Both the position numbers and the translations under genes were made by a program. A stretch of 64,000 nt of DNA, from contig JAURZV010000031.1 of assembly GCA_030653175.1 (NCBI GenBank), positions 62,001 to 126,000 of the forward strand, in the 5' to 3' direction. The notes beneath the pieces were generated by a model. The model did not search any database and was not told the DNA's origin. It saw only the letters and a program-made list of their open reading frames with translations. Source of the DNA: Methylobacter sp. (lineage in GTDB: Bacteria > Pseudomonadota > Gammaproteobacteria > Methylococcales > Methylomonadaceae). Within the stretch, counting starts at the first letter, position 1. Every line of letters begins with the position of its first letter. Of this stretch, positions 4,569-52,058 are shown in pieces.

Positions 4569-5885
4569 ATGAGCTCAATTTGGAACAACTGCCTTTCTAA
4601 ACTTGAAAATGAAATTTCAGGTTCTGACTTCAGTACATGGATACGACCCCTTCAGGCCATAGAAAGCGATGAACAAATAAAATTATTAGCGCCCAACCGC
4701 TTTGTACTGGACTGGGTTAAAGAGCATCATTTTGCAAAAATTGAAGAGACTATTCATGAGTTTTCCAACGGCACATTAAATTTGAGCCTGGAAATCGGTT
4801 CCAGAAATTCGGCCGTTGCTACGGCAGCTAAAGTAGCCAAGCCTGCCGGAACCCAAAAAACCAGCCCCAACTTCCTTAATAAGGCATTTACTTTCGATAA
4901 TTTTGTTGAAGGTAAATCCAATCAGTTGGCAAGGGCTGCTTCAATGCAGGTTTCCGAGAACATCGGCAAGGCTTATAACCCATTACTTATTTACGGCAGT
5001 TCAGGTTTGGGTAAAACCCATATGATGCACGCAATAGGCAATGCCGTATTACAAAAAAATCCTTCAGCGACTGTCGTTTATCTGCACTCTGAAAAATTCG
5101 TCCAGGATATGGTTAAGGCATTGCAGCAAAATTCAATCAATGCGTTCAAGGAGTTTTATCGCGGCGTTGATGTGCTGCTAATTGACGACATTCAATTTTT
5201 TGCCGGCAAGGAACGTTCTCAGGAAGAGTTTTTTCATACTTTCAATACGCTGCTGGAAAAGAAACATCAGGTGATTTTAACCTGCGACAAATATCCCAAG
5301 GAAATCATAGGCCTTGAAGACCGTTTGAAATCACGGTTTGGCTGGGGACTTCCTGTTTTAATCGAACCCCCGGATATGGAAACCAGGGCCGCTATTTTAA
5401 TGAAGAAAGCAGCTCTGGTTAATATCGAGCTGGCTCAGGATGTGGCTTTCTTTATCGCCAAAAGGATTCCTTCCAACGTTCGGGATCTGGAAGGCGCTCT
5501 AAGACGAGTCATTGCCAACGCACAGTTTACCGGTCGTGAAATCACCATCGAATTCACCAAGGAAGCGCTGCATGATTTAATTTCCTTGCAGGACAAACTC
5601 GTTAATATCGACAATATCCAGAAAACGGTTGCCGAATATTTTAAAATTCGAGTTGCCGATTTATCTTCTAAAAATAGAAAGCAATCCATTACCCGGCCGC
5701 GACAAATGGCTATGTGCCTGGCCAGAGAACTGACATCACACAGCTTTCCTGAAATTGGCGATGCATTTGGCGGTCGTGATCACACCACGGTAATGAATGC
5801 CTGCAAAAGAATTGCCGAGCTAAAAGAAGCTGATAACAAGATCGCGGAAGATTATTCCAACCTGTTGAGAACTCTGTCACATTGA
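4569..5885 (+). CDS. dnaA: Chromosomal replication initiator protein DnaA
   Basis: DnaA binds DnaA boxes and melts the origin. The 438-residue protein has domain I ([17 protein letters not shown]...), a short linker, and an AAA+ domain with Walker [10 protein letters not shown] (about 143-151) and Walker B LLIDDIQF. The C-terminal helix-turn-helix carries the signature [16 protein letters not shown] 4569 is chosen because it gives the standard domain I N-terminus; the frame is open 21 codons upstream but those residues do not resemble DnaA. dnaN follows after a 188-bp gap with a DnaA box, a classical arrangement for autoregulation. Confidence 0.98.
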
Positions 5886-6073: not shown

Positions 6074-7276
6074 ATGAAATTTATTATTAATAGAGAAGAA
6101 ATCCTGGTCCCTTTGCAACAAATAGTCAGCGTGATAGAGAAAAGGCAAACGATGCCTATTCTTTCCAATGTCCTGATGGTTATTGAGGAAGATCAGCTTA
6201 TTTTGACGGGTACTGATCTGGAAATTCAGATCATCGCTAAAATCAATATCGCCAGGGACGGTGTGTATGCCGAAAACCTGCCGGGAGCAGGTTCGGCGAT
6301 CGCAGCAGCTACGCCGGGTTCGATTACGGTACCGGCCAGAAAATTCCTGGATATTTGCAGGCTTTTGCCAAATGGCGCTGAAATTAAGTTTGAACTGCAG
6401 AACGATATCGCCAGAGACGGTGTGTATGCCGAAAACCTGCCGGGAACAGGTTCGGCGAAAGTAAAAATCGCCTCCAGTCGCAGCCGTTTTTCCTTGAGTT
6501 GTTTGCCGGCAGATAATTATCCTGAGTTTGCTGAATTCGAATTAGAGAACCACTTATTCATCAATGCCGGCAAATTTAAAAAAGCACTCGATAAAACGGT
6601 ATTTTGCATGGCCAATCAGGATGTTCGTTATTACCTGAACGGCTTGTTGCTTAATGTCTCCAACAGTAAGTTGAAACTGGTTGCATCGGATGGGCACCGC
6701 TTGTCCATTTATGAGGATAACCTCGATCAGGCCACCGGTTTTGAAGCCCGAATTATTCTTCCCAGAAAAGGCGTTCTTGAGCTGAGTCGATTGCTCGACG
6801 ATCCGGAAGCTGAACTGAAAGTTGAGTTTTCCAGCAATAATATTAGAATTTTTATCAAGAACCTGATTTTCTCGGCAAAACTGGTGGATTCTAAATACCC
6901 TGATTTCGGCAAAGTCTTTCAGCAAGAGTTTTTTAACCAAATCCATATTCAAAAGCAGATATTAAAAGAAGCGTTGACCCGCGTCGCTATCTTGTCGAAT
7001 GAAAAATTCAAGGGCGTGACCTTTGACATTACACCTGACAGCCTGAAAATCAGCACGCATAATCCGGAGCATGATGAAGCCGAGGAAGAACTGTTTATTG
7101 AATACACGGGTGAACCGTTAACTATTGCTTTTAATGCGCAATATTTACTGGATGCTGTTTCAAACCTGGATTCCGAGCTTGCGGTTCTGACCATTGCGAG
7201 CAATGCCAGCAGTTGTTTTATAGATGAACCCGGCGATTGCGGGTATAAGTTTATCGTTATGCCGATGCGACTGTAA
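6074..7276 (+). CDS. dnaN: DNA polymerase III sliding clamp (beta), with two in-frame 17-residue insertions
   Basis: DnaN is the ring-shaped processivity clamp of replicative polymerase. The protein starts MKFIINREEILVPLQQIVSVIE and ends CGYKFIVMPMRL, both canonical, with SRSRFSLSCLPADNYPEF in domain 1. It has 400 residues instead of the usual 366. The excess of 34 is explained by two copies of the 17-residue peptide IARDGVYAENLPG(A/T)GSA, at about residues 59-75 and 112-128. Removing both leaves a clean 366-residue clamp. Both insertions fall in domain 1, the second in a loop between conserved strands (FELQND / KVKIASS). The frame is intact, so I expect a functional protein. recF follows after 10 bp. 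Confidence 0.97.
   Translation: MKFIINREEILVPLQQIVSVIEKRQTMPILSNVLMVIEEDQLILTGTDLEIQIIAKINIARDGVYAENLPGAGSAIAAATPGSITVPARKFLDICRLLPNGAEIKFELQNDIARDGVYAENLPGTGSAKVKIASSRSRFSLSCLPADNYPEFAEFELENHLFINAGKFKKALDKTVFCMANQDVRYYLNGLLLNVSNSKLKLVASDGHRLSIYEDNLDQATGFEARIILPRKGVLELSRLLDDPEAELKVEFSSNNIRIFIKNLIFSAKLVDSKYPDFGKVFQQEFFNQIHIQKQILKEALTRVAILSNEKFKGVTFDITPDSLKISTHNPEHDEAEEELFIEYTGEPLTIAFNAQYLLDAVSNLDSELAVLTIASNASSCFIDEPGDCGYKFIVMPMRL
6249..6299 (+). repeat. 51-bp palindromic element, copy 1, inside dnaN
   Basis: A 51-bp unit bounded by TCGCC and GGCGA is inserted after ATA in dnaN. Its right half folds into a hairpin: GCCGAAAACCTGC pairs with GCAGGTTCGGC (11 bp with a 2-nt bulge, 5-nt loop, 6269-6297). 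The length is exactly 17 codons. Excision restores the sequence KINIAAATPGSITV. It matches copy 2 at 49 of 51 positions. Confidence 0.9.
6408..6458 (+). repeat. 51-bp palindromic element, copy 2, inside dnaN
   Basis: Second copy of the element at 6249-6299, in the same orientation and reading frame, again after ATA. It differs by two G-to-A changes, one of which changes Ala to Thr in the encoded peptide. Excision restores QNDKVKIASS, the normal clamp sequence. Confidence 0.9.
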
Positions 7277-36605: not shown

Positions 36606-39600
36606 TTAAGTCAGCGCGGATGGTTGGGCTACTTTCCACTCCTCAGGCACTTCCCATTCTTTGACCCAAGCGGCAAGATCGGAGGCAGGCATCGGTTTGG
36701 CAATGCCGTAGCCTTGTGCATGGCGGCAGCCCATTTGCAAAAGAGCGATACCATGTTCGATCGATTCCACGCCTTCGGCGATGACTTGTCGCCGGAAAGA
36801 TTCGGCCAAACCGATAACGCCTTGCACAATAGCTAAATCATCCTCGTCTTCGAGCATATTTCGCACGAATGTCTGGTCGATTTTAAGCGTTTCCGCAGGC
36901 AGATGTTTGAGATAGCTCAGCGATGAATAGCCCGTTCCGAAATCATCCAGGGCAAACTGTACGCCCAATGTTTGACAGTCTTTAATAACCTGGGATGTCA
37001 GCGATAAGTCAAGTAACGCCTGGGTTTCCAGTATCTCCAGCTCAAAATGACCCGGTTTGATAGAAGGATGGCGTTCAAATGCGTAATAGAGTTGCAGGAC
37101 AAAATCGTCGGTTTGCAGCGATCTGGCGGTGATATTGACGCTGATCTGGAGCTGTAAGCCCAAACGTTGCCAATTCTCCATATGCTGCAACGCCTTGTCG
37201 ATAACCCAGGCATCGAGCCGGGCTATAATGTCATGATTTTCAAGCAGCGGCAGAAAATCGCCCGGCATGACCAGGCCGCGTTCAGGATGTCGCCAGCGTA
37301 TCAATGTTTCCGCCCCGAACACTACACCTTGCTGCATGTCGACTTTGGGCTGGAAAAAAAGTTCGAATTCCTCGTTTTCCAGCGCCTGTTCAATGCGGTT
37401 TAGAGCCTCGCGATGCGAATGGAGTTGACGATCCAGCTCCAGATTATAAATATGAAAGCAGTTTTTTCCCTCTTGTTTGGCCCGATACATGGCCTGATCG
37501 GCATGCCGTAACAGCGTATCCGGGTCGGTGTTATCCTTGGCAATTGCTCCCTGCATTGCTCTCGGCAATCGCTCCCTGCATTGCTCTACCTCCCCCATCC
37601 TTGGGGTCGTACCTCCTGCATCCCTCCAGTCGTCAGGAAAAATGCTGATACCAATGCTGGCGGATACCGAGACAACCTGATTTTTCAAGGAAACAGGCGA
37701 GCTGATAACTTCCAGCAGACGATGCAAAGTGGTTTCGCAGTCTTCAACCTTTTCCAGCCCCAGTAATAAAAACACGAATTCATCACCGCCTAAACGAGCG
37801 ATAGTATCGCCTTCGCGCAGGGCGTTTTTAATGCGCAGGGCAATTTCGATCAGCAGCTGGTCGCCCGCTTCATGGCCCAGTCTATCGTTGACCGGTTTAA
37901 ATCCGTCCAGGTCAAGATAACCCACCGCCATTAAACAGTGATCACGTTTGGTTTGAGCAAAGGCCAGATGCATACGATCGGCCAATAGAATCCGGTTGGG
38001 CACACCGGTGAGCGGGTCGTAGTGAGCCATGAGCTCCAGCTTCCGTTCTTGCTCTTTAAGCTGGGTAATATCCGAAGACGTGCCGATGTAATGCGTTATT
38101 TTACCCTGCTGATCGGCAACCGCGGAAATGGTGAGCCATTCGGCGAAGATTTCCCCACCTTTCTTGCGGTTCCAAACTTCGCCGCGCCAGTAGCCCTGCC
38201 GGTTGATTGCGTGCCACATGTTTTCATAGAAGCCGATATCGTGAAGTCCCGACTTAAGCAAACTTGGCTTTTTGCCCAATACCTCGTCTCGTGAATAGCC
38301 CGTTATGCTGCCGAACGCCGGGTTCATGTCAATAATGTTGCGCTGTGCATCGGTAATCAGGATGCCTTCCTGCGTACTGGCAAAAACGCTGGCGGCCATA
38401 CGCTGTTCTTCTTGAACCTGTTTTCGTTTGCTGATGTCGCGTCGTAAACGCATATTCCAGGTGACAATAAAAGCAAGCAGCAATAATGCCGCTGCTGCAT
38501 AAAGCAGAACGGTTTCGGTTTTTACACCGGGCTCGTATTTCAAACTCATCCAACGATTCCGGATGGAGTCTTTTTCAGACTGGGGGATGTCGGCCAGTGC
38601 TTTGGCAAGTAAGGATGCCAGTTCGGGATTAGTCTGGGTGGCGGCCATACGGTGGTGACTTTTGTAATTGGTATCCCCGGAAAAACCGAGATTAAGCATG
38701 GCCTCTCTTTTAATCGCGTAGTTGGTTGAAGCGGCATCGCCAATATAAGCATCCGCTTTGCCGCTGCTGACCCTATTCAATGCATCCTGAATATTTTCGG
38801 CGGGAAGCAGTTGTATTTCAGGATGATCATGCATTAACAGTTCCAGCATGAAGTAGCCTTTTTCCAGCGTTACCCGCTTGCCGCTGAGATGATCCAGCGC
38901 ACCTATAAACCCGTTATTACTATCGCTGATAATAATGGCCGGGGTATTTAGATAGGCTTCTGTGAAAATTAAATAGCGCTCGCGTTCGGGCGTTTTATTG
39001 ACGTTGGAGATCATATCCAACTCCCCGTGTTGCGCCATTTCCAGTATTTCAGTCCAGGATTTATTCTTCACTATGTCAAGTTTCACGCCCAGCCGCTGCT
39101 CGACCAAGGCAATATAGTCAGCGCTCAGGCCGACGTAATTACCGTTGGCGTCGATCCATTCGTACGGCGCAAAATCCCGGTCTATGCCTACGCGAATAAC
39201 CGGGTGCGCCTGCAACCAGGCCTGTTCCTCCGGGGTGAAATCAAGCTTGCTGTGCTTTTCCTGGAGGTAAATAAAGCCTTCCAGATGATCTATTGAATTT
39301 ATCAGACCCAGTTGCCGATAAGTGTCGGCGATGCGTTGAAAACGCTTGATGTCGGTGTGACCGATAGCAACGGTTTCCGGCAAAATCATTTTCACCGTTT
39401 CCTGCGCCTCAAAGCGCAAATGATCGGCAGAAAGCCGGTTGCCGGGATTGTATTTACTGAGGATGATCCTGATCAGTTCGTCCTGATGTTTGAGCGCATA
39501 ATCCCAGCCTTTGAGCGAGGCGCGCAGGAAACGCCGAACTCTTTCCGGATGCCGGTTTATTTCCTGTTCCGTGGTGAACAGATTATCGCTCAAAAAATCC

Positions 39601-51655: not shown

Positions 51656-52058
51656 GTTTTTTCACCACGAAGAGCACGAAGAGCACGAAGAACACGAAGA
51701 ACACGAAGAACAAGCCAAGGTTTATCGTTCCCACGCTCCGGCGCTCATCGTTATACACAAGTGTTACCTCGTTCCCACGCAGCGCGTGGGAATGCGGGGG
51801 GATGACGGTGTTCCGCAGACACTTGTGTATAACGATGAGCGCTCCGGCGTGGGAGTAATGCATCCTGCAACGCTCCAGCGTCGCCTCGGCAATTGCTCCT
51901 GCAATATCTGCATAACCCACATGGATGTGGTGAATGCAGATATTGCAGGAGCAAATATCTGTCCATGCAGTCGTAAAGCGCTTACTTTTGGTGCCGAACG
52001 CGATGCTGGAGCGTCTCTAACTGCGTTACCACGCCGGAGCCGCGGGAACGATGGGAAT
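51656..52058. repeat. Repeat-filled interval between the efflux operon and gmk
   Basis: No gene is visible. It has five tandem 9-bp units of CACGAAGA(G/A) (about 51663-51710), an inverted repeat of about 35 bp (CTCATCGTTATACACAAGTG at 51744-51763 and its complement near 51820-51839), and the GTTCCCACGCAGCGCGTGGG palindrome at 51771-51790. It also has CGGCAATTGCTCCTGCA (51887) leading into a hairpin with 19-bp arms (51895-51952; core CTGCAATATCTGCAT). The repeats are nested, as if inserted into one another. Confidence 0.8.

Follow-up and report, generated by a model that had tools for sequence, protein, structure and literature searches.

The RPEs of Rickettsia, as presented in the relevant passages of two accounts, are dispersed palindromic repeats of 105–146 bp, or about 150 bp, that lie in frame in unrelated, often conserved genes (PMC2229807, PMC10969869). 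REPs, in the sections of a further account that describe them, are short stem-loops with variable paired stems, some within DNA synthesis or repair genes and some present twice in one gene, and the CGTC REPs, two RPE families included, apparently have no dedicated transposase (PMC3733652); the string 'methylo' is absent from the main text of that paper. The MITEs ERIC, YPAL and the 107-bp NEMIS are described as non-autonomous, structured and sometimes fused in frame to genes, and a table of seven kinds of MITE, about 100–200 bp in size, gives four with target duplications and marks three as unknown (PMC2229807).

Two copies of a 51-bp unit, probably a very small mobile element, lie in the dnaN gene of Methylobacter sp. 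within a 64-kb window, by which we mean the whole stretch of DNA analysed (64,000 nucleotides). The gene (positions 6074–7276, plus strand, as for all dnaN features below) is an open reading frame for a DNA polymerase III beta clamp of 400 amino acids with two 17-residue inserts in its N-terminal domain. The stop-to-stop frame matches Pfam PF00712, PF02767 and PF02768, and the protein matches 28 distinct solved clamp sequences (E up to 1e-40). Copy 1 (site 1, 6248–6298) reads IARDGVYAENLPGAGSA and scores 81.9 bits against model R1; copy 2 (site 2, 6407–6457) reads IARDGVYAENLPGTGSA and scores 74.5 bits. The first-pass annotation had described two near-identical units, in one frame, each adding 17 residues to an otherwise normal clamp, and this description holds: 49 of 51 bases match (a 54-nt repeat, 96%), both units share one reading frame of the 400-residue protein, and 400 − 2 × 17 gives 366, the length of insert-free relatives, which are unbroken at both points. 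That the units are insertions is borne out by the two closest dnaN relatives, empty at both points. The ends TCGCC/GGCGA had been placed at 6249–6299 and 6408–6458, which designates the same insert with boundaries one base off, ATCGCC...GGCG being the form that fits the filled and empty pairs. The one-base placement is ambiguous in dnaN because the right flank starts with A, and copies whose right flank is T (TsaC) or G (L290) settle it in favour of the latter form. When up to three mismatches were allowed, the two dnaN units were the sole matches in the window, and none arose in 100 shuffles.

Translation through the unit is predicted to add 17 residues. In an alignment to the solved clamp 7rzm, both inserts are N-terminal and fall in or beside gaps between matched blocks, and we place them, from sequence, in putative solvent loops. 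An action of the peptide on the clamp surface, raised in the first-pass annotation, found no support, tolerance accounting for the data; most likely the clamp tolerates both peptides as passengers that bring no new function.

The best 80 of 164 dnaN relatives were kept, and an R1 search of these 80 loci gave matches in eight (L052, L053, L054, L055, L058, L066, L074 and L095). Of these loci, 24 were aligned with the window. The unit is present at site 1 in the window, L052 and L095, and at site 2 in the window, L053 (a tandem pair), L054, L055, L058, L066, L074 and L095; the other aligned DnaN proteins have 366 residues and run unbroken through both sites. The peptides are not carried by all close relatives, since the nearest kin of the window's dnaN, Methylobacter sp. 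L057 and Methylobacter tundripaludum SV96 (L056), lack the unit at both sites. In the DNA, the unoccupied orthologous sites in relatives, AAT^ATCGCA for site 1 and GAT^AAAG for site 2, indicate a gain of exactly 51 bp with zero duplication. On a tree of the window and 56 of the 80 loci, made with the insert columns removed and with site states read from the alignment, parsimony needs two changes at site 1 and seven at site 2, where gain and loss are indistinguishable. Site-2 copies differ in stem sequence, with other subtypes in L054, L058 and L074, all at the identical base. At site 2, L055 and L066 carry decayed inserts (20.8 and 26.9 bits, respectively) in which a 51-nt stop-free frame persists, with third-position changes making up 9 of 17 (L055) and 7 of 15 (L066). 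Recombination with the L052 lineage was rejected as the source of site 1, every 100-nt bin being closest to L056 or L057 with no mosaic signal.

The element has a short target motif. Among 112 copies, 58 are single, and the 44 of these with an intact right end give 43 distinct targets, some orthologous. After orthologues were collapsed, 36 independent sites remained, which follow KWT^NNNG with K in 31, W in 35, T in 35 and G at +4 in 33. In dnaN, site 1 has AAT on its left (6245–6247), the A at the K position being an exception to the KWT consensus, and ATCG on its right (6299–6302, NNNG), and site 2 lies between GAT (6404–6406, KWT) and AAAG (6458–6461, NNNG). Target site duplication, a trait of DDE-transposon MITEs, is absent in the filled and empty pairs from dnaN, TsaC and the comparison of SV96 with G000, the 4.0-Mb draft genome that holds the window; in the TsaC pair, G020 (L257) is filled and G013 (L258) is short by exactly 51 bp.

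The family is large in its own genome. Against the possibility that the unit occurs nowhere else, G000 holds 53 copies of at least 55 bits, among 90 R1 matches at E up to 0.01, of which 67 were read individually. A sister family, B (GAC...), which has the same two-hairpin plan, accounts for two matches slightly over 50 bits and for most of the 12 that were read under 50 bits. Family B (GACCTCCATGGATGGAGGAAATGCC plus hairpin, with GGA loops) was seen in G000 at C34:5043-5095 and 5460-5512 (L228), C21:60863-60980 (L238) and C60:6606-6723 (L240), and two places have copy pairs in inverted orientation with 66 bp between them. Across the genus, R1 matches occur in 23 of 23 genomes, with 3 to 86 in each (E up to 0.001, family B partly counted). 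In a sample of the order, under stricter filters, 80 of 301 genomes have matches, 76 of them in the window's family, and in a sample of the class the figure is 8 of 369 (E up to 1e-6), comprising G000, one genome of the same family and six outside the order. Three of these six are in one genus (g161, family f119), from each of which one copy was read, and matches in the six reach at most 59 bits. A search of viral contigs with one exact 22-base pattern found no copy, and blastn found no match to the element in plasmids or phages. The mobility implied in the first-pass annotation is supported over evolutionary time, in that the element is dispersed and its presence differs between related species. 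A long inverted repeat in the window at 51885–51955, TGCTCCTGCAATATCTGCAT ... ATGCAGATATTGCAGGAGCA, is possibly a separate repeat family.

Turnover is visible between close relatives. Sixteen stretches of SV96, which cover all listed matches but one, contain 20 sites, 16 of them with orthologous flanks among G000 stretches that were themselves chosen mostly around G000 copies. Four of the 16 sites are exactly empty in G000, four are filled alike at equal size, two are arrays one unit apart (L282, L297) and six differ otherwise. Aligned base by base, the empty pairs at L289 and L290 are clean to the junction on both sides and that at L285 has diverged flanks; the junction of the fourth (L284) was not recovered in this alignment. 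Insert decay is exemplified by one of the six sites that differ otherwise, a remnant in G000 (L225) that, relative to SV96 (L287), has a 39-nt deletion, a multiple of three.

The element also forms head-to-tail 51-bp arrays, and in one of them (L297/L252) G000 has an extra, different first unit relative to SV96. The ATCG start of the unit recreates KWT^NNNG at the left edge of a filled site, which leaves a possible entry point for later copies. We predict that left entry of new units builds the arrays, which fits a non-significant trend: the first unit is closer to consensus than the last by 16 to 8 with 2 ties in 26 arrays (p 0.15), and by 13 to 7 with 2 ties in 22 independent arrays (p 0.26, not significant). 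A 63-bp chimeric variant, present at dnaN site 2 of L095 and at G000 C35:8086-8141, both at fitting targets, has the palindrome GTAGGGGCGACCGGCCGGTCGCCCCTAC (GTAG-flanked) or a GCAG form in place of the tip of hairpin 2, so the tip is swappable with the length still a multiple of three. In G000 the element occupies the matching place in two near-duplicate gene segments (C15:6823-6875 and C15:16306-16358, L204; the first segment without a Pfam match), which suggests that gene duplication also spreads it. A longer parent element, considered for pairs in G014 and G015 with 738-bp spacing, was discarded, as both copies lie within one rapA-type gene.

Each unit folds into two hairpins. The first-pass annotation had reported an internal 11-bp hairpin; its 11 pairs stand, yet they are interrupted by a 2-base bulge, and a second small hairpin is present at the left end. 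In copy 1 the small hairpin 1 (6250–6263, model positions 4–17) has a GGGA loop, and hairpin 2 (6269–6297) has 11 pairs, an AA bulge and a CGGGA loop; at the same model positions in copy 2, the hairpins are at 6409–6422 and 6428–6456. The terminal inverted repeat of the element is 5 bp. For hairpin 2, 96.5% of cells are paired in 26 copies, 6 of 11 pairs are altered on both sides, double-change cells number 28 against 7.3 in shuffles, and the covariation score was reached by 0 of 500 shuffles. In family A, hairpin 1 hardly varies, with 96.9% of its cells paired and pair 5-16 mostly G-U; that pair covaries in sister family B. Rfam covariance models gave no match overlapping the element at 12 loci with copies of either family (E up to 0.1 or 0.5). 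Elsewhere in the window, at 37540–37640 on the minus strand, there is a cluster of small hairpins with GGA-containing loops, reminiscent of CsrA/RsmA-binding RNAs; hairpin 1 of the element likewise has an AGGGAT loop.

Wobble pairs indicate which strand folds. In hairpin 2 of 93 distinct copies, G-T cells outnumber A-C cells by 37 to 9 (p 4e-5, related copies counted as independent), and pair 5-16 of hairpin 1 is G-T in 80 of the 93. A G-T pair on one strand corresponds to A-C on its complement, which assigns the folding role to the strand that reads ATCGCC...GGCG. Split by orientation to the host open reading frame (95 copies), the ratio of G-T to A-C is 18:1 in antisense copies, 11:7 in sense copies (weak) and 10:4 in others, so selection on host mRNA does not produce the asymmetry. 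Relative to replication, a hand count on SV96 scaffold C1, contig C107 and M. luteus gave 17 elements in the leading orientation and 7 in the opposite one (p 0.064, not significant and confounded by gene orientation); an orientation set by the lagging-strand template is a trait of IS200/IS605-type elements.

Open frames of conserved genes hold many copies. The 55 G000 copies of at least 50 bits divide into 36 inside long open reading frames, 15 near the edge of one and 4 outside. Together with relatives' loci, 82 interior copies reduce to 59 first units, 37 host clusters and 39 site-frames, and Pfam identifies 35 of the 37 clusters above the family cut-off. Hosts in G000, with names read off Pfam, include DnaN, a ValS-type synthetase, LptD, PDH E1, RNase R, RecO, GlnE, Sua5/TsaC, a lipoamide-dehydrogenase-type enzyme, APS kinase and a ComEC-type protein, and those in relatives include RapA and YhdP. 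Copies are in frame in dnaN, valS, lptD, rnr, recO and glnE of G000 and in rapA of relatives. Among 38 family-A site-frames, 18 encode IARDGVYAASLPGAGAA, 9 and 7 are two antisense frames, and the rest are 2, 2 and 0. The target motif alone predicts 10.8/7.8/3.6/7.1/6.3/2.3 against the observed 18/9/7/2/2/0 (p 0.004); the bias is present in G000 alone (27 site-frames, p 0.003), and under a looser baseline p is 5e-6. The frame test covers copies inside long open reading frames only, with one family-B cluster removed, and 11 of the 39 site-frames come only from relatives' top-scoring loci. Openness in all six frames was dropped as a stand-alone signal, being equalled by 541 of 5,000 dinucleotide shuffles of the consensus.

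From these sequence comparisons we consider it probable that the 51-bp unit is a very small non-autonomous mobile element, moved in trans as a folded single strand. A trans-acting single-strand nuclease or transposase would recognize the folded strand and join its ends to a nick after KWT, replication would then fix the insert, and later copies, entering at the left edge of a filled site, are predicted to give the head-to-tail arrays. As the unit spans 17 codons and commonly lacks stops in all six frames, it would survive within a gene where its frame yields a peptide that is tolerated, IARDGVYAASLPGAGAA being the most frequent. A bolder version, which we put forward tentatively, is a minimal mobile DNA of a new class, in which a 51-nt single strand with two GGGA-loop hairpins would suffice for a novel enzyme or a host topoisomerase, with KWT^NNNG insertion, a self-targeted left end that lets arrays grow, and a life in essential genes made possible by the 17-codon length and mostly stop-free frames.

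The mover could also be a Y1 transposase (RAYT or IS200/IS605) acting on a REP-type element, the T-rich left bases being its target and the hairpins its binding sites. The lack of duplication, the specific bases on the 5' side and the strand-specific hairpins with a bulge would suit such an enzyme, and Y1_Tnp was matched in all 23 genomes of the genus and in all 12 of a second search (G001 and G015 are in both sets). We nevertheless find this account doubtful, as no family-A copy was found within 1.4 kb of the 13 Y1 matches in G000 (one flank ends at 1.2 kb, at a contig end); G001 has 86 R1 matches (E up to 0.001, part family B) against a single Y1 match (positions 8–110 of 121, in a 141-aa frame), and G015 has 38 against one of IS200 type (genome 87% complete). 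The element also lacks a GTAG tag, and the REP and IS200/IS605 rules, in the part of PMC8266576 that bears on them, include no G at +4. Thirty Y1 loci in relatives gave, below E 0.001, a single R1 match, of family-B type (L191), and family-B elements are near two Y1 matches, at about 0.9 kb (L214) and about 0.2 kb (L191). A host enzyme that mis-joins a folded fragment, such as a type IA topoisomerase, is improbable. Enzymes of this type prefer C at −4; G at +4 in 33 of 36 independent targets, together with the unit start ATCG, puts CNNN^ on the bottom strand at both junctions, and no dedicated enzyme was found. However, the wobble data point to the top strand as the folding one, and the KWT side is left unexplained.

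Three other accounts concern dnaN or its product. Gene conversion or local copying, rather than separate insertion, could have produced the second dnaN copy from the first, as might be suggested by their 49 shared bases and common stem subtype; we judge this unlikely, because L053 carries the window's subtype at site 2 but not at site 1, the other subtypes of L054, L058 and L074 occupy the same base, no shared flanks were seen that could seed conversion, and a local hop of a mobile element would look alike. Eight DnaN genes with an insert at the identical site-2 base, and frames that outlast hairpin decay, could be taken to mean that selection maintains the peptide as a functional module modifying the clamp, but the same peptide occurs in many unrelated proteins and 72 of the 80 relatives' dnaN loci have no match, making such a role very improbable. 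Ribosomes might also hop over the insert, as in phage T4 gene 60 or the byps of yeast mitochondria, a hairpin inside an essential gene being in keeping with this; here the insert is 17 codons, open and frame-biased, and decayed copies with little hairpin signal retain the frame, so that skipping is extremely improbable.

A mobile element moved in trans as a folded strand, the reading that we prefer, bears on how very small gene-less repeats spread in bacteria, and the element offers a sharp target motif and a strand assignment. Clean filled and empty pairs between related species, and named host strains (M. tundripaludum SV96 and M. luteus IMV-B-3098), make the mechanism directly testable, and the many essential enzymes with a ready-made 17-residue insert are a natural experiment in protein tolerance. 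No published description of the element family was recognized in the open-access literature, as judged at the level of search results.

Compared with described systems, the element combines familiar and distinct traits. The likeness to RPEs proposed in the first-pass annotation stands in that the element, too, is a palindromic repeat in frame within unrelated conserved genes, and is tempered in that such repeats have already been described well beyond Rickettsia. RPEs have one long stem and 12-bp terminal repeats, whereas the element has 51 bp, two stems and a 5-bp terminal inverted repeat, its hosts are gammaproteobacterial methanotrophs and its target is defined as KWT^NNNG. Neither the GTAG nor the CGTC tag of REPs was seen by eye on either strand of the element consensus, the dnaN copies having an internal GACG only; GTAG REPs flank a RAYT gene, whereas no family-A copy was found within 1.4 kb of the 13 Y1 matches in G000, and REPs are mostly head-to-head dimers, whereas the element forms head-to-tail arrays and has a second hairpin. 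With IS200/IS605 and TnpA-REP systems it shares insertion without duplication 3' of a specific short sequence and, as judged from the 37:9 wobble asymmetry among related copies, probable one-strand hairpins; it differs in that no linked transposase was found, G at +4 matters, and hairpin 1 starts 2 bases from the left end, with no space for a guide before it. From MITEs it differs in its 51-bp size and its lack of target duplication. Mobile repeats fused in frame to genes are thus already known, and what sets this family apart is its absent tags, two hairpins, size, target and arrays.
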